This document shows positions 1,431-8,815 of a stretch of 9,658 nt of DNA, piece after piece. Origin of the DNA: Candidatus Latescibacterota bacterium (lineage in GTDB: Bacteria > JAAXHH01 > JABIQT01); assembly GCA_018667995.1 (NCBI GenBank), contig JABIQT010000207.1:1-9658 (forward strand), in the 5' to 3' direction. Positions within the stretch are counted from its first letter, which is position 1, and each line of letters opens with the position of its first letter. A program made the translations under genes and the position numbers. The notes below the pieces were generated by a model. That model worked only from the letters and a program-made list of their open reading frames with translations. It searched no databases and was not told the DNA's origin.

Positions 1431-2051
1431 TTATATCCATCCTTTCCAGCGATAATAGATCAGTTTCACGGTTTCAATGGATATGGACTCTAATAGGTCT
1501 ATATGGGCAGAAACAAGACGACCGTGTTTTTCGTAATAAGTGACGGGGGCGTTGTATACGATGAATCCCTGCTTCCTGAATACGAGACTCCCGCGGAGGC
1601 TGTGCCAGGCGGATGTTACCACCAGGGCGGAACGCCACCCGTTCTCGTCAAATATCCTTCGAACATTTTGGGCATTCTCGAAGGTGGATTCTGCTTCATC
1701 ATCTGCGGTGATGGCACCAGGCGAGACTCCCATTTCCAGAGCCAGTTCAGACATCTTCTGAGCTGCCGTGACCGGCCAACCGCCTCCGGTAAAGATAATG
1801 TGAGGTGCGTAGCCTTTTTTCAGCAAAGTGATACCTTGAATGGTTCGTCGCAGAGAATCAGAAGAATGAGAGTTATCTTCCAAGAGCCCGGACCCCAGGA
1901 CCACAATGGCGTCCGTTTTCTCAAGGGCCGTCGGCGCTACAAGCCATTGACCGCAATAGGGAAGAATCCAGGCAAAGGTGACCACGGTTCCTACCACTAA
2001 ACATCCAGCCACCAGCCATCGGTATTCCGATAGTAATCTCAGTGTTTCCAT
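1431..2051 (-). CDS. DUF218 / YdcF-SanA-ElyC-like membrane-anchored protein, copy 1
   Basis: The protein has 206 residues from the ATG at 2051. This start has GAGG 8 nt upstream; an in-frame ATG at 2078 and a GTG at 2108 lack this support. A single N-terminal membrane segment (about 12-30) would place the domain outside the cytoplasmic membrane, as in SanA and ElyC. The DUF218 fold is recognisable by TDAIVVLGSG (46-55), IIFTGGG (85-91), STFENAQN (122-129) and VVTSAWHSLRG (144-154), the last with the conserved His150 and Arg153. It ends in the family-typical YYRWKGWI. Known members affect envelope integrity and vancomycin or detergent tolerance, and E. coli YdcF has been reported to bind S-adenosylmethionine; no reaction is established. 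It lies 103 bp after its paralogue and upstream of a methyltransferase, probably in one transcript. Its role here is unknown. Confidence 0.85.
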   Translation of the reverse strand: METLRLLSEYRWLVAGCLVVGTVVTFAWILPYCGQWLVAPTALEKTDAIVVLGSGLLEDNSHSSDSLRRTIQGITLLKKGYAPHIIFTGGGWPVTAAQKMSELALEMGVSPGAITADDEAESTFENAQNVRRIFDENGWRSALVVTSAWHSLRGSLVFRKQGFIVYNAPVTYYEKHGRLVSAHIDLLESISIETVKLIYYRWKGWI

Positions 2052-2059
2052 GAGCCTAA

Positions 2060-2063
2060 CCTC
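2060..2063 (-). promoter_or_regulatory. Ribosome-binding site deciding the start of DUF218 copy 1
   Basis: On the minus strand GAGG (within TTGAGG) lies 8 nt upstream of the ATG at 2051. The two longer in-frame starts at 2078 and 2108 have no comparable motif. The 2051 start also gives a protein nearly equal in length to the downstream-annotated start of copy 2. Confidence 0.55.
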
Positions 2064-2154
2064 AATATGACGCTCCATCTGGCAACTGCCTGGGGAGGAA
2101 TTTGGCACATTGAGCCTTACTGAAAGCTATGGTCAGCTGCGACTGGTTTGCCAC

Positions 2155-2778
2155 TTACATCCATCCTTTCCAGCGATAATAGGCTCGACTGAGGTATTCC
2201 GGAATGACGGCCTCCATCAAGACCACGTCCTCTCGGAAGGAGTCCGCAAAGGATTCGAAGAATATGATTGGGGCCTCATAGATGATGAGGTCATTTCGCG
2301 AGAAGACGGCCACTGCCCGCTGCATCTGCCAGGGCGAGGTGACCAGGAGCGCGGATCGCCAGTTTCTCCTTGCGAAAATCTCCTGTACGGAATCTGCGTT
2401 TACCTTCAAAGATGTCGACTCAGTATCCAGAATGGTATTTTCACGTGGTACACCCAGATCGATTGCCAGATCTCTCATTCTCTTCAGGGAGGCTTCGGAT
2501 CCGCCTCCGCCCGAGAAAACCAGATGTTTCGCAAGTCCGCGGTTGTGTAGTTGTATCGCAAATACGGTCCGCCGGAGCGTCCTTTCCGAGAGTGTGCCAT
2601 CCCAAAGAGCGTCTCCGAGTACAATGATGGCATCGGCTTCGCGTATGTTACTGGTCACTATCAGGGCTCGGCCCATCATCGGAGTAACCCATTTAACGCC
2701 GACCAGTAAGCCTCCGAGCAGCAAGGCGCCTGCCAGGAGAATCCCATTGATGCCCGCCATGTAATCCCATATTTTCAT
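2155..2778 (-). CDS. DUF218 / YdcF-SanA-ElyC-like membrane-anchored protein, copy 2
   Basis: This is a paralogue of the next gene. From the ATG at 2778 it has 207 residues; an ATG at 2814 would add 12 residues. I prefer 2778 because its length then matches copy 1 (206), although neither start has a strong ribosome-binding site. It has an N-terminal membrane segment (about 8-30), then the DUF218 domain with EADAIIVLGDAL, LVFSGGGGSE and WRSALLVTSPWQMQRA, and ends in YYRWKGWM. The canonical His of the TSxxHxxR motif is Gln here (in WQMQRA), and the ExxSxNTxENA-type motif is degraded (DTESTSLKVNA), so its active site differs from copy 1. It is the first gene after the strong minus-strand promoter. 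An extracytoplasmic location is inferred; function is unknown. Confidence 0.83.
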   Translation of the reverse strand: MKIWDYMAGINGILLAGALLLGGLLVGVKWVTPMMGRALIVTSNIREADAIIVLGDALWDGTLSERTLRRTVFAIQLHNRGLAKHLVFSGGGGSEASLKRMRDLAIDLGVPRENTILDTESTSLKVNADSVQEIFARRNWRSALLVTSPWQMQRAVAVFSRNDLIIYEAPIIFFESFADSFREDVVLMEAVIPEYLSRAYYRWKGWM

Positions 2779-2811
2779 CGTGGTCAATCCATGTTCTGCA
2801 TGCTCACTAAA

Positions 2812-2850
2812 CATCTTCTACGACCAATCCTATCGACCGTCAAGAAGATG
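2812..2850. repeat. 8-bp inverted repeat in the divergent intergenic region
   Basis: CATCTTCT (2812-2819) is the perfect inverse of AGAAGATG (2843-2850), separated by 23 bp. The right arm falls about where transcription from the minus-strand promoter should begin, and the left arm lies within the transcript. It could be a hairpin at the 5' end of the DUF218 message or a repressor site between the divergent genes. Arms of this length also occur by chance. Confidence 0.4.
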
Positions 2851-2906: not shown

Positions 2907-3725
2907 ATGTCGAGGTACCACGACCATAGCACCCGTGAAGTCGGCCAAGAAGATGACGCCAGAAGTGACTTCTGGCAAATTCCTACTGATTGGCCGGTCC
3001 TGGACGCAGATCATGTACACCTCTGGCGTGTCGATCTGAACCAGACTGATGACTTGGTAGCGCGATATTCTCGGGTCCTCGCCCCCGACGAGGAATATCG
3101 CGCTGGCCGATTCCGCTTTGAACGACACAAAAGGCGTTTCGTCGTTGGTCGGGCCATACTCCGGCAGGTGCTCGGTCGCTATCTGGATCTAAGTCCGGCA
3201 CATGTCGCATTCGGTTACGGTCCTAAAGGCAAACCTTTTGTGGATCACTCTACCGATCATTTGATCAGGTTTAACCTTTCGCACACCGAAGAGCTCATGG
3301 TTCTTGCAGTAAGTTTGAACAGAGAAATGGGGGTCGATGTGGAGTTCATGAGACCCATATCCGACATCGATCAGCTAGCCGATCACTGTTTCTCTGAGAA
3401 GGAACTCCGCACATTCAAGCAACTCAAATCCCAACATCGTCGAGCGGCATTCTTCCGATGTTGGACGCGTAAGGAAGCCTATGTTAAGGCCATAGGGGAC
3501 GGATTCTCTGCGCCATTGAAGGGATTTGATGTGAGCTTTTTGCCAGAAGCCGAGGCCCGTCTGTTGCGTGTAGTGGCAGACTCTGAAGAGGCGGATAAAT
3601 GGTCAATGTGTTCCTTCGAACCTGCCCTGGATGTTCAGGGTGCACTCGTAGCCGCTGGAAATGATTGGAACGCGCATTTCTACCGGTGGGCTAAGCCTTG
3701 GAGCGAATGCGTCTCGGTTGTGTAG
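2907..3725 (+). CDS. Sfp-type 4'-phosphopantetheinyl transferase
   Basis: The enzyme transfers 4'-phosphopantetheine from coenzyme A to the conserved Ser of carrier domains, here most likely Ser1009 of the adjacent NRPS and carriers of the upstream enzyme. All Sfp/Gsp-family motifs are visible in 272 residues: YGPKGKPFV (104-112), FNLSHT (122-127), GVDVE (142-146, with the Mg-binding Asp144 and Glu146), CFSEKEL (161-167) and CWTRKEAYVKAIGDG (185-199, containing the conserved Lys-Glu pair). It is longer than typical Sfp proteins (about 225-240) because of an acidic ~35-residue N-terminal extension before the first family segment, VHLWRVDL. The ATG at 2907 has AAGGTGG about 9 nt upstream, which supports this start. 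It is divergent from the DUF218 genes and is followed by a strong hairpin, so it may be transcribed separately from the NRPS. Cytoplasmic. Confidence 0.95.
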   Translation: MSRYHDHSTREVGQEDDARSDFWQIPTDWPVLDADHVHLWRVDLNQTDDLVARYSRVLAPDEEYRAGRFRFERHKRRFVVGRAILRQVLGRYLDLSPAHVAFGYGPKGKPFVDHSTDHLIRFNLSHTEELMVLAVSLNREMGVDVEFMRPISDIDQLADHCFSEKELRTFKQLKSQHRRAAFFRCWTRKEAYVKAIGDGFSAPLKGFDVSFLPEAEARLLRVVADSEEADKWSMCSFEPALDVQGALVAAGNDWNAHFYRWAKPWSECVSVV

Positions 3726-4187: not shown

Positions 4188-7100
4188 ATGGATATGACGC
4201 AAACTCGGCTCTCATACACACAAGAATCCATATGGTTTCTGGATAGGCTATTTCCTGGCAAGGTTCCCAACAACCGTACCTCGGTTTGGCGGATCCAGGG
4301 CGATTTGCATGAAGAGGCGTTGCGTTCGGCGTTGGGGGAGATGGTTCACAGGCACGAGATTTTACGAACATCCTATCCTACCGACGACGCGCTTCCAGTT
4401 GCCCGTGTTGAATTGTCGGTAACACTTCCACTCACTCTCATAGATTTGAGTGACCTGACCGCGCCTAAGCGCGAAGCCGCAATCCTGGTTCAGACTCGAA
4501 GGGATCGATCTCATACCTTTGATATCGGCCAGGCGCCGCTATACCGGATCTCGCTCATTCGGTCCAGCGGAGCGGAACACGTCCTCATCCTGACGATGCA
4601 TCAGATCATCTGCGATGCCTCGTCAGTACAGGTGTTCTGCAAAGACCTTGCCGATTTGTATGTTGCATTCTGCCAGTGTGAATCCGTGCCAGCTTCCGAA
4701 CCATCTCGCCAGTATCGGGAATTTGTAGCCAGAGAGAGGAAGTCCTTTCAGGACGAACTCTCGGAACGGAGTCGGTCATATTGGCTGGCGAGACTCGGCA
4801 GGGATATCCCTGTCCTGGAATTGCCCACTGACAGGCCGCGACCGAAACGTCATACCCACGAATACGAGGTACAAGATCTGTCAATGTACAGATCGGATAC
4901 TGAGGCACTCAGGGACCTCGGTGAACGTGAATCTTGTTCGGTATTCGTGATACTTGCCTCTTTGCTGAATGTCCTTCTCTATCGTTACACCGACATGGAG
5001 GAGGTGGTCATCGGAACACCGGTGGCTACGCGAGGAGATGGTGATTCAACGCGAAGTATAGGTGTTTTTCTAAACGTCTGTGTTCTTAAAGTATCCCTTA
5101 GTGGTGAGATGCTCTTTACGGATCTTATCCATGGTGTAAAGGGCACTGTGGACGCAGCCTTTGAGCATAAACACCTGCCGTTTGACAGGTTGGTGGAAGA
5201 TCTGAAAATCGAACGACATGCCGGGCGAAACCCATTGTTTCAGGTCATGCTCGAACTAACAGATACGCCCATTCTCGAACTCACAGGCTCAAAGACGATA
5301 CATGAAGCCACGGAATGGGATTCGGTGGCAATGGATCTGAGTCTGCGCTTCATGTGGGAACCGGAGGGGCTTACAGGATCCTTGGTATTCAATTCTGACC
5401 TCTTTGACGTCTCCACCATAGGGCGCATGGCCGGCCACTTTCGTACCTTGCTGGATGCGGTCATCGCGGATCCTGCGAGGCCAATATCGCAATTGCCGTT
5501 GCTCTTAGGCGAAGAACACGAACAGCTACTGACCTGGAACCAGACCGCCGCGAAGTACCCTCAGAATCTGCTCCTGCACCAGCCATTTGAGCAACAGGTG
5601 GAGAAGACTCCGGATGCAGTTGCGTTGGTCTACCAAGAAGCCACGCTCAGCTATCGGGAACTGAACCATCATTCCAATCTGTTAGCTGGCTTTCTGAAAA
5701 CCAAGGGCGTCGGACCTGGCGCGCTGGTGGGGCTCTGTGCCGAACGATCCTTTGAAATGGTGATCGCATTATATGCCATTCTCAAGGCAGGAGCGGCATA
5801 CGTACCACTGGACCCGGTCTATCCCAGGGACCGGCTGGAAGCCATGCTTGAGGACGCTCGGATCAGCCTCACTCTTGTTCAGGATAGGTTTACCCATTTG
5901 GTTTCAGGTCGTGAGATGGAGATAATCTCTCTCGATTGTTTGCTCGATTCAGGGAATCCTCTGATACCGGAAGAAATAAGCGATATGAACCCGGACATAC
6001 CAACGAATCCTGAAAGTCTTGCCTATGTGCTCTTTACATCGGGTTCGACGGGACGACCCAAAGGAGTTATGGTCTCGCACGGCGCCATTCTAAATCGTCT
6101 GTTCTGGGGGCAGAGCTGTTATCCTCTGACAGAAAAAGATGCCTTGCTTCAGAAGACACCTTACAGTTTTGACGTTTCGGTTCCTGAGTTCTTCCATCCG
6201 CTACTGGCGGGAGCACGGATGATCATCGCCGAGCCGGACGGACACCGCGATGGTGCATATCTGATCGACCTAATAAGGAAGCACCATGTCACATCCGTGC
6301 ACTTTGTTCCATCCATGCTGCAGATATTCCTTGAGAATTCTGGCGCACATTCCTGTACGTCAATCAGACGCGTCACTTGCAGCGGTGAAGCTTTGTCCTA
6401 TGATCTCCAGGAACGCTTTTTTTCGGTGATGAGTGCTGATCTGCTGAACCTGTATGGTCCGACGGAAGCCGCAGTAGAGGTAACGTACTGGGATTGTGTG
6501 CGGGAGTCCGGCCGAACAGACGTACCCATAGGGTATCCCGTCGCTAACACATCGCTGTATATCCTCGATAAGTCCATGAATCCCGTTCCCGTTGGTGTTC
6601 CCGGTGAGTTGCATATCGGTGGTGTACAGGTTGCACAAGGGTACATTAATCGACCGGAATTGACAGAGGAGCGATTTGTTCGCGATCCCTTTTCGGAAGA
6701 TTCGAATGCTCGTATGTACAAGACGGGTGATCTGTGCAGATTCCTGGCTGACGGATGTGTTGAGTACCTCGGACGTAACGACTTTCAAGTGAAAATCCGG
6801 GGGTTTCGCATCGAGCTTGGCGAGATAGAGGCGGTACTTCTCCAGCACGAATCGGTCCGTGAGGCTGTGTTGTTGGCACGCGAAGACACGCCGGGAGACC
6901 TACGTTTAGTTGCTTACGTGACTCAGATTACTAATGAAATAGACGCCGAGATCATGCGTGCTTATCTGGCTCCAAAACTTCCAGATTACATGGTGCCGTC
7001 TGCTTTCGTTATGATGGAGAGCTTGCCTTTGACGGAAAGCGGCAAGACGAACCTGCGAGCGCTTCCTGCTCCAGACTATGGAGCCCAGTCGTCCGCCGAT

Positions 7101-8219
7101 TACATGGCGCCACGTGGAGACGTAGAAGAGGCCATCGCTGAAATCTGGGAGGAGACGCTCCAGATCGGACAGGTGGGCATTCGAGATAATTTCTTTGAGA
7201 TTGGTGGCAATTCGTTAATCGCAGTTCGACTTTTTGCCAAGATCAATGATCGTTTCGGAGTGGACTTGCCACTTGCTGCTATATTTGAGGCGCCCAATAT
7301 AGAAGAATCCTCAAAGCTTATTGGAAATCTGATAGTTTCGGAATCGTCTTCTGATGTGCAAACGTCTGACATGCGTGAATTGGACAACAGCACTACCGGC
7401 GAACCATCCAATAGCGCATTAACCACTGGAGAATGGACGCCTCTTGTGGCCCTACAAGCGAAGGGAAGCCGACTGCCGTTTTTCTGCATGCACGGCGCGG
7501 GTGGGAATGTCCTGAATTTCCATCTCTTGTCAACGAAACTCGGGGAAGATCAACCATTCTTTGGACTTCAGGCACAGGGGGTGGACGGCAAACTACCGCC
7601 TCTGGAATCGATCGAACAGATGGCCGAAATCTACATCGATGCGGTCAAAACGGTACAACCAGAAGGCCCCTATCTTCTAGGAGGCTACTCAGGTGGTGGC
7701 ATTGTTGCGCTGGATATGGCACGTCAGCTTGCGGGTAAGGGTGAAGAGATTGGATTGCTTGTCTTCCTTGATACGTTTGCTCCTCGATTGCCCAAACGCT
7801 CGTACACTGTTGGAGAAAAGCTAAGGCTCTTGTGGGATCTCGGCATCCAGGGCTGGTTACGGTTGCGCCTCGACATAGAAATTGAAAGATTCAAGCGGTA
7901 TCAAGTCTGGAATAATCTTCGAAAGGGAAAACCGGTTCCACTCCAGCTAAGAGAAACGTATCTGATGAACTCATTTGTTCAGACACAGGTTAAATACGAT
8001 CCGAAGGACCCCTACTTGGGCCCGATCCACCTGCTGACTGCCGAAAGAGTTAATGTGATACATGAACATGTAGCACACGACCTCGGCTGGAGCCACATGC
8101 CCACAGGAGAGATCACAGTGCATCGCGTGCCCGGCGGGCATGATGATTTGGTACTTGAACCCAATGTCAATGTATTGGTCGATCATATGCGTAGATGTCT
8201 TGATGCCGCTCAGCCCTGA
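4188..8219 (+). CDS. Single-module nonribosomal peptide synthetase, C-A-T-TE
   Basis: A 1343-residue one-module NRPS with EntF-like domain order. Condensation domain (about 5-440): SYTQESIWFLDRL, RHEILRTSYP, then HQIICDA at 138-144 in place of HHxxxDG, IGVFLN, HKHLPFDRLVEDL and RNPLFQVML. Adenylation domain (about 460-970): LSYREL (487), TSGSTGRPKG (617-626), NLYGPTEAA (754-762), YKTGDL, VKIRGFRIELGEIE and Lys953. Pocket residues aligned to GrsA/EntF are D662 V663 P666 H705 T730 S732 L755 V763 E764 K953, nearest to serine codes such as DVWHFSLVDK. Carrier domain: FFEIGGNSL with Ser1009, the phosphopantetheine site. A Ser/Thr/acidic linker follows (about 1045-1078). Thioesterase (about 1080-1340): GYSGG with Ser1168, LDT with Asp1195, and GGHDD with His1318, a complete triad. 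It likely activates one amino acid and releases or cyclises the product. The altered condensation motif makes its peptide-bond-forming role uncertain. Cytoplasmic. Confidence 0.96.
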   Translation: MDMTQTRLSYTQESIWFLDRLFPGKVPNNRTSVWRIQGDLHEEALRSALGEMVHRHEILRTSYPTDDALPVARVELSVTLPLTLIDLSDLTAPKREAAILVQTRRDRSHTFDIGQAPLYRISLIRSSGAEHVLILTMHQIICDASSVQVFCKDLADLYVAFCQCESVPASEPSRQYREFVARERKSFQDELSERSRSYWLARLGRDIPVLELPTDRPRPKRHTHEYEVQDLSMYRSDTEALRDLGERESCSVFVILASLLNVLLYRYTDMEEVVIGTPVATRGDGDSTRSIGVFLNVCVLKVSLSGEMLFTDLIHGVKGTVDAAFEHKHLPFDRLVEDLKIERHAGRNPLFQVMLELTDTPILELTGSKTIHEATEWDSVAMDLSLRFMWEPEGLTGSLVFNSDLFDVSTIGRMAGHFRTLLDAVIADPARPISQLPLLLGEEHEQLLTWNQTAAKYPQNLLLHQPFEQQVEKTPDAVALVYQEATLSYRELNHHSNLLAGFLKTKGVGPGALVGLCAERSFEMVIALYAILKAGAAYVPLDPVYPRDRLEAMLEDARISLTLVQDRFTHLVSGREMEIISLDCLLDSGNPLIPEEISDMNPDIPTNPESLAYVLFTSGSTGRPKGVMVSHGAILNRLFWGQSCYPLTEKDALLQKTPYSFDVSVPEFFHPLLAGARMIIAEPDGHRDGAYLIDLIRKHHVTSVHFVPSMLQIFLENSGAHSCTSIRRVTCSGEALSYDLQERFFSVMSADLLNLYGPTEAAVEVTYWDCVRESGRTDVPIGYPVANTSLYILDKSMNPVPVGVPGELHIGGVQVAQGYINRPELTEERFVRDPFSEDSNARMYKTGDLCRFLADGCVEYLGRNDFQVKIRGFRIELGEIEAVLLQHESVREAVLLAREDTPGDLRLVAYVTQITNEIDAEIMRAYLAPKLPDYMVPSAFVMMESLPLTESGKTNLRALPAPDYGAQSSADYMAPRGDVEEAIAEIWEETLQIGQVGIRDNFFEIGGNSLIAVRLFAKINDRFGVDLPLAAIFEAPNIEESSKLIGNLIVSESSSDVQTSDMRELDNSTTGEPSNSALTTGEWTPLVALQAKGSRLPFFCMHGAGGNVLNFHLLSTKLGEDQPFFGLQAQGVDGKLPPLESIEQMAEIYIDAVKTVQPEGPYLLGGYSGGGIVALDMARQLAGKGEEIGLLVFLDTFAPRLPKRSYTVGEKLRLLWDLGIQGWLRLRLDIEIERFKRYQVWNNLRKGKPVPLQLRETYLMNSFVQTQVKYDPKDPYLGPIHLLTAERVNVIHEHVAHDLGWSHMPTGEITVHRVPGGHDDLVLEPNVNVLVDHMRRCLDAAQP

Positions 8220-8431: not shown

Positions 8432-8815
8432 ATGTCCGTTAATCTGTATCGCGTCATCCTCCCTGTAACCGACATAGAACGGGCGGTAACATTTTACGCC
8501 GAGCTGCTGGAGGCACCAGGATCGCGCGTCTCACCGGGCCGTCATTACTTCGAATGTGGCGGCACCATCCTCGCGTGTTTTGATCCGTGCGCCGACGGAG
8601 ATGCCATTGAGTCCCGTCCGAACCAGGGCCACCTCTATTTTTCAGTCTCGGATCTGAATGCTGCCCATGAAAGAGCCACCTCTGCAGGGCGTCTATCCGT
8701 CGATGCGTCTGTTGCTACCATGCCGTGGGGGGAAAAGTGCTTCTACGGTGAGGACCCTTTTGGTAATCCATTCTGCTTCGTCGATGACAGTACCTGTTTC
8801 ACCGGAGAGTCATGA
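8432..8815 (+). CDS. VOC-superfamily (glyoxalase/bleomycin-resistance fold) protein
   Basis: This 127-residue protein has the paired beta-alpha-beta-beta-beta layout of the vicinal oxygen chelate superfamily: RVILPVTDIERAVTFYAELL (7-26), YFECGGTILACF (39-50), HLYFSVSDLNAAHERA (67-82) and GEDPFGNPFCFV (106-117). At the usual metal-ligand places I see Arg7 instead of His/Gln and Cys115 instead of the Glu of DPxGNxxE, with His67 retained, so a classical glyoxalase metal site is doubtful. Members of this fold include antibiotic-binding resistance proteins. Its stop overlaps the start of a MATE exporter by ATGA, so the two are probably translationally coupled, which favours a self-protection role over metabolism. 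The ATG at 8432 has AAGG about 10-13 nt upstream, a weak site. The 212 bp before it show no terminator or clear promoter, so it may be co-transcribed with the NRPS. Confidence 0.82.
   Translation: MSVNLYRVILPVTDIERAVTFYAELLEAPGSRVSPGRHYFECGGTILACFDPCADGDAIESRPNQGHLYFSVSDLNAAHERATSAGRLSVDASVATMPWGEKCFYGEDPFGNPFCFVDDSTCFTGES

Follow-up and report, generated by a model that had tools for sequence, protein, structure and literature searches.

Glutamine at the second C3 histidine position in the condensation domain of a single-module C-A-T-TE synthetase from Candidatus Latescibacterota

The contig and its synthetase gene

The window, i.e., the whole stretch of DNA analysed (9,658 nucleotides), is one entire contig (G000:C590) of a 6.06 Mb metagenome-assembled genome (MAG) of Candidatus Latescibacterota bacterium, which is distributed over 1165 contigs and is 85% complete with 4% contamination. 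G+C content is even throughout the contig, with a slight increase toward the 3' end. The central gene encodes a nonribosomal peptide synthetase (NRPS) made of one module (Table 1), with an intact reading frame and intact adenylation (A), thiolation (T) and thioesterase (TE) domains; the PDB matches of the A domain include EntF. The protein begins nearly at motif C1, a docking domain is absent ahead of the condensation (C) domain, and the contig carries no visible donor module.

Table 1. Features of the window (positions on the 9,658-nucleotide contig; aa, residues of the synthetase).
Feature	Position	Strand	Basis
DUF218 (ElyC/SanA-like) gene	1431..2108	-	
DUF218 (ElyC/SanA-like) gene	2155..2814	-	
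Sfp/HetI-type 4'-phosphopantetheinyl transferase (PPTase)	2907..3725	+	Pfam PF01648, PF22624
Single-module NRPS, C-A-T-TE, 1343 aa	4188..8219	+	ATG start preceded by GAGGTG
Condensation (C) domain, N-terminal	4206..5531	+	Pfam PF00668, aa 7-448, 273 bits
C3 motif H138-Q139-IIC-D143-A144 replacing HHxxxDG	4599..4619	+	Direct reading; alignment
AGA = Arg182 replacing the conserved C4 Trp (YxDYAxWQ)	4731..4733	+	Direct reading; alignment
Adenylation (A) domain, core motifs intact	5586..7046	+	Pfam PF00501 (aa 467-819) and PF13193 (aa 879-953)
Thiolation (PCP, T) domain, IGGNS motif retained	7131..7310	+	Pfam PF00550, aa 982-1041
Type I thioesterase (TE) domain, GYSGG motif retained	7479..8156	+	Pfam PF00975, aa 1098-1323
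VOC-fold/glyoxalase protein	8432..8815	+	Pfam PF00903
MATE-family exporter, truncated at contig end	8812..9657	+	Pfam PF01554; TIGR00797 above cut-off

The PPTase gene upstream and the VOC and MATE genes downstream lie on the same strand as the NRPS gene. The PPTase, which scores 215 bits with the NCBIfam HetI model, below the cut-off of that model, is the probable activator of the synthetase T domain. The VOC gene, possibly in the same operon as the NRPS gene, shares 4 bases with the MATE gene. On the opposite strand, the two adjoining DUF218 genes, apparently a tandem duplication, adjoin a TIGR04325 methyltransferase gene.

The Rfam search of the window gave no match. No close relatives of the synthetase were found in the GTDB genome scan, the protein is absent from the other 15 of the 16 genomes of the MAG's phylum, none of which gave a C-domain match either, and plasmid records returned generic NRPS matches only, all below 60% identity. 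PKS modules are encoded in the MAG itself, as is a second NRPS whose N-terminus is docking-like; fragments of a type I PKS-NRPS line are spread over its contigs C774, C850 and C260 (loci L001, L135, L136).

The C3 motif and the divergence of the condensation domain

Read directly from the DNA and numbered from the ATG at 4188, the codons CAT CAG ATC ATC TGC GAT GCC give HQIICDA, and alignments with PDB entries (Txo1, Txo2, TycC6, TomBC) place Gln139 at the position of the catalytic His with Asp143 retained, as the first-pass annotation of the locus had it; an alternative HH pair at the active site was looked for in these alignments and none was found. A single miscall is an unlikely cause, because both the His codon (now CAG) and the Gly codon (now GCC) are altered while the frame stays open over 1343 aa. 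The domain covers positions 6-456 of the 456 of the PF00668 model, which places it in the Pfam C-domain family, with HQIICDA at C3 where HHxxxDG is expected; as the literature admits HQ variants, among them ORF18 of the streptothricin pathway, the departure marks a variant and not an exclusion from the family. The AlphaFold model has a normal C fold (mean pLDDT 88, pTM 0.88), and the top PDB structural matches of this predicted model are Txo2, Txo1, DhbF and TomBC, with TM values of about 0.88 for Txo2, DhbF and TomBC.

Assignment to three other groups was considered and rejected. An X domain, the P450 recruiter of glycopeptide synthetases, is located between the last T domain and the TE, whereas the domain studied here is N-terminal, and by sequence it scores 113 bits with the X domain 4tx2 vs. 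232 bits with Txo2; a heterocyclization (Cy) domain would have DxxxxD at C3, where the window reads HQIICD; and the score with the EntF equivalog model (NCBIfam NF007605) is 616 bits against a cut-off of 2400.

The trees were built without characterised starter C or X domain sequences, and their SH-aLRT supports derive from quick runs. On this basis the window C domain groups most closely with that of L001, an HHxxxDG domain of the same genome (SH-aLRT 89-91), joined on a long branch. As an L-clade C domain would, the window domain sits apart from the long-branch Myxococcota clades formed by E domains and the C domains after them, clades that were assigned by gene order alone. The first tree had placed the window domain beside TomBC, apparently through long-branch attraction, since this grouping was gone under a mixture model.

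The first-pass annotation had further held that the other core motifs were intact and that general decay could on this ground be dismissed. The former is wrong and the latter does not follow. At the 64 columns in which at least 93% of 88 canonical C domains agree, the window domain departs 22 times, the canonical domains on average 2.1 times, L001 five times, TomBC 20 times and the acidobacterial HQ C-A-T-TE domains of a second scan 7-13 times. Besides the C4 Trp, the window domain has lost the C5 Arg (now K301) and the Trp following the C3 motif (now S145); Asp143, the Arg of RHExxR and the Trp of YW are retained. In a relative-rate test that used 95 outgroup modules and L001, the other C domain of the MAG, as the point of comparison, the window C domain proved 6.3 points further away than that of L001 (95%, 2.7-9.9), while its A domain was not further than L001's, and the window minus L001 difference was larger for C than for A by 0.085 (95% interval 0.037-0.132). 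Since the C domain is accelerated and the A domain is not, the change in constraint is specific to the C domain, and it is compatible with loss of function or with a new function alike.

Recurrence of Gln at C3 and the acidobacterial series

Among 77,152 bacterial C domains surveyed in PMC10212144, C3 was "almost always HHxxxD" except in the heterocyclization type. Scanning for the exact pattern TMH[H/Q][ILV]xxD[AG]x[ST] returned 868 HH and 0 HQ matches in 195 genomes of Myxococcota, the only group in which the HQ share among C domains was measured, as the HQ families came from HQ-selecting searches. Across about 85,000 GTDB genomes the HQ pattern occurred at 34 loci, a lower bound because the pattern misses LHQ forms, and in 12 of them the motif lay within a C domain. 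Five of these are C-T didomains from actinobacteria and three belong to acidobacterial gp2 clusters; Bryobacteraceae, Blastocatellia (HQxxxDA), Mesorhizobium and Hyphomicrobiaceae contribute one each. The Mesorhizobium domain (L069, 5579-6946), carried on a plasmid, was left out as evidence of function, its A domain being broken. That A domain ends after about 60 residues and continues in frame into a sequence that by eye resembles lysine 2,3-aminomutase, probably through a deletion. Judged by sequence and by these scans, the HQ swap is real, beyond chance, rare and of several bacterial origins. HQ variants were already known (ORF18, HQxxxDM), and the HQxxxDA of the window is a variant form of them; the literature search found no paper naming HQxxxDG or HQxxxDA, and HQxxxDM in the review PMC11546977 only.

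Using the HQ domain as a query against 396 genomes of Acidobacteriota, we found a conserved A-T / P450 / C-A-T-TE cluster (L138-L140, L173-L182), accompanied in some cases by a PPTase. The N-terminal C domains of these clusters group together in a single clade with a support of 100; their C3 motifs begin with HQ, HH, HL or SH, and the HQ members retain the C4 Trp. Pairwise dN/dS values among the HQ C domains range between 0.13 and 0.38, in line with such estimates as were obtained for the A and TE domains, which indicates that they are under purifying selection. The fetched stretches of the HQ clusters L173-L176 and L178 contain no other C domain, and in genome G386 the HQ domain is the sole C domain of the genome. 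Such cases, by their conservation, suggest that an HQ domain is able to form the bond. L138 (HQ) and L140 (HL) are 95% identical in the C domain, with a dN/dS of 0.25 vs. 0.24 for A; here the work could also be done by another HQ C domain, which is free-standing. Because HQ recurs and is maintained by selection in the acidobacterial family, Gln need not mean a dead enzyme.

The HQxxxDA form occurs in some of the acidobacterial C-A-T-TE proteins and in Blastocatellia; L001, the nearest in the tree, has HHxxxDG. The window domain falls outside the acidobacterial HQ clade; a clade uniting window, L001 and the acidobacterial family was compatible with the data (p=0.72), but a common origin of every HQ domain was rejected (AU p=6e-14). 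With the nearest relative an HH domain, the Gln was therefore probably gained within the window's own lineage, and the acidobacterial conservation bears on the window by analogy only.

Possible functions of the HQ domain

The role of the second His of HHxxxDG remains debated (PMC11546977, PMC8097023). The statement of the first-pass annotation that its replacement usually costs activity agrees with the engineered H2697Q variant of fuscachelin C3, left with about 1% of activity (PMC8097023), and with AmbB H953A, which is inactive (PMC8968710). DFT calculations, however, have the bond form first and the proton leave afterwards, which would let water serve as base instead of His (PMC8097023), and the natural ORF18 is active, its Gln-to-Ala mutant less so (PMC11546977). 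Together with the recurrence and conservation of HQ domains, this makes the earlier interpretation incomplete, sound as its observation was.

We tentatively favour, at a probability of roughly 45%, a divergent C domain that is fed in trans and in which Gln139 acts as a positioning residue. The C-A-T-TE synthetase, alone on its contig, would take its donor from a carrier protein or an acyl-CoA encoded elsewhere, and the C domain would still condense, without His chemistry. Hydrogen bonds from Gln139 would place the acceptor amine, the proton going to water or substrate, while Asp143 would retain the structural salt bridge and Ala144 would narrow the acceptor side. The A domain would load one amino acid on the PPTase-activated T domain, the C domain would acylate it there, and the product, once released by the TE, would be exported by the MATE protein.

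Several observations stand against an active domain, namely the acceleration restricted to it, the loss of the C4 Trp, the lack of a donor module in view and the behaviour of engineered mutants. Nearly as probable is a C domain that is inactive and maintained as a structural C-A platform or as a binder of a partner, as X domains are, leaving an A-T-TE enzyme whose TE would set the amino acid free or join it into oligomers. The excess of 0.085 in C over A and the 22 changed columns fit such a platform, as do the near abolition of activity by an engineered His-to-Gln change (PMC8097023), the absence of docking domain and donor module, and the acidobacterial L140, which has Leu at this site and whose C domain is 95% identical to that of an HQ orthologue. 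Nonetheless, the domain still has Asp143 as well as the Arg of RHExxR and the Trp of YW, several conserved clusters have an HQ domain as the only C domain found, and TomBC, from a known pathway, is an equally divergent C domain. As for the donor, the protein could be the terminal module of the MAG's own PKS-NRPS line and receive its chain, an unlikely arrangement whose probability overlaps that of the preferred reading, being compatible with an active C domain. The PKS modules of the MAG and the docking-like N-terminus of its other NRPS, whose C domain is the nearest tree relative, speak for it, but a docking domain is missing from the window gene, whose flanking genes are unrelated.

Formation of an ester or another bond, or acylation of an acceptor that is not carrier-bound, is quite improbable. 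Ester-forming C domains such as SgcC5 and Fum14 exist, yet SgcC5 retains HHxxxDG, no sequence feature of the window domain and no other finding points specifically to an ester, which the first-pass annotation had named as one possibility, and the T domain in cis offers an ordinary acceptor. In favour of altered chemistry, the acceptor of ORF18, also HQ, is a free aminoglycoside (PMC11546977), and C3 departures are commoner among C domains with small acceptors (PMC8097023). An error in sequencing or assembly, or decay of the gene, is the least probable explanation: the MAG is fragmented, but two codons depart independently, the long frame is open, the A, T and TE motifs are intact, and the same Gln recurs elsewhere.

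The favoured trans-fed C domain has partial counterparts in known systems. The ORF18 C-PCP didomain, known here by description from the review PMC11546977, shares the Gln for the second C3 His and partners in trans, but has neither A nor TE domain and closes its motif with Met instead of Ala. The acidobacterial clusters share the C-A-T-TE order with an N-terminal HQ C domain, HQxxxDA in some and a PPTase in some; they differ in their separate clade, in their A-T and P450 partners, in keeping the C4 Trp and in some 50 residues before C1 that the window protein does not have. EntF is likewise a C-A-T-TE protein beginning at C1, with a related A domain and a donor in trans, but it has the canonical His, and the window has no EntB or EntE nearby and stays far below the EntF cut-off. 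Tomaymycin TomBC (8qnf; TM 0.88) resembles the window domain in the closing Ala of its HHxxxDA and in having no Trp after the motif, although it keeps both His residues and shares 28% sequence identity.

It is rather doubtful that Gln at the second C3 position represents a recurrent alternative catalytic state of trans-acting C domains; if it did, the HQxxxDA of the window and the acidobacterial H/Q/L orthologues would mean that forming a peptide bond depends on positioning and does not require His as a base. Published tests of C3 mostly concern engineered mutants in His-tuned domains, and natural HQ domains, above all the acidobacterial H/Q/L series, allow the role of the C3 histidine to be probed in proteins that evolved with Gln. 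Annotation rules that label HQ C domains as inactive can be wrong.

The actinobacterial C-T didomains (L051, L058, L067, L079, L084) share HQ at C3 with the window and differ from it in reading HQxxxDGPS, in having no A or TE domain and in belonging to another clade; their HQL[VI]SDGPS is invariant in five species. An A-domain frame lies ahead of the didomain, and in L137 also a ketosynthase and a class III aminotransferase.
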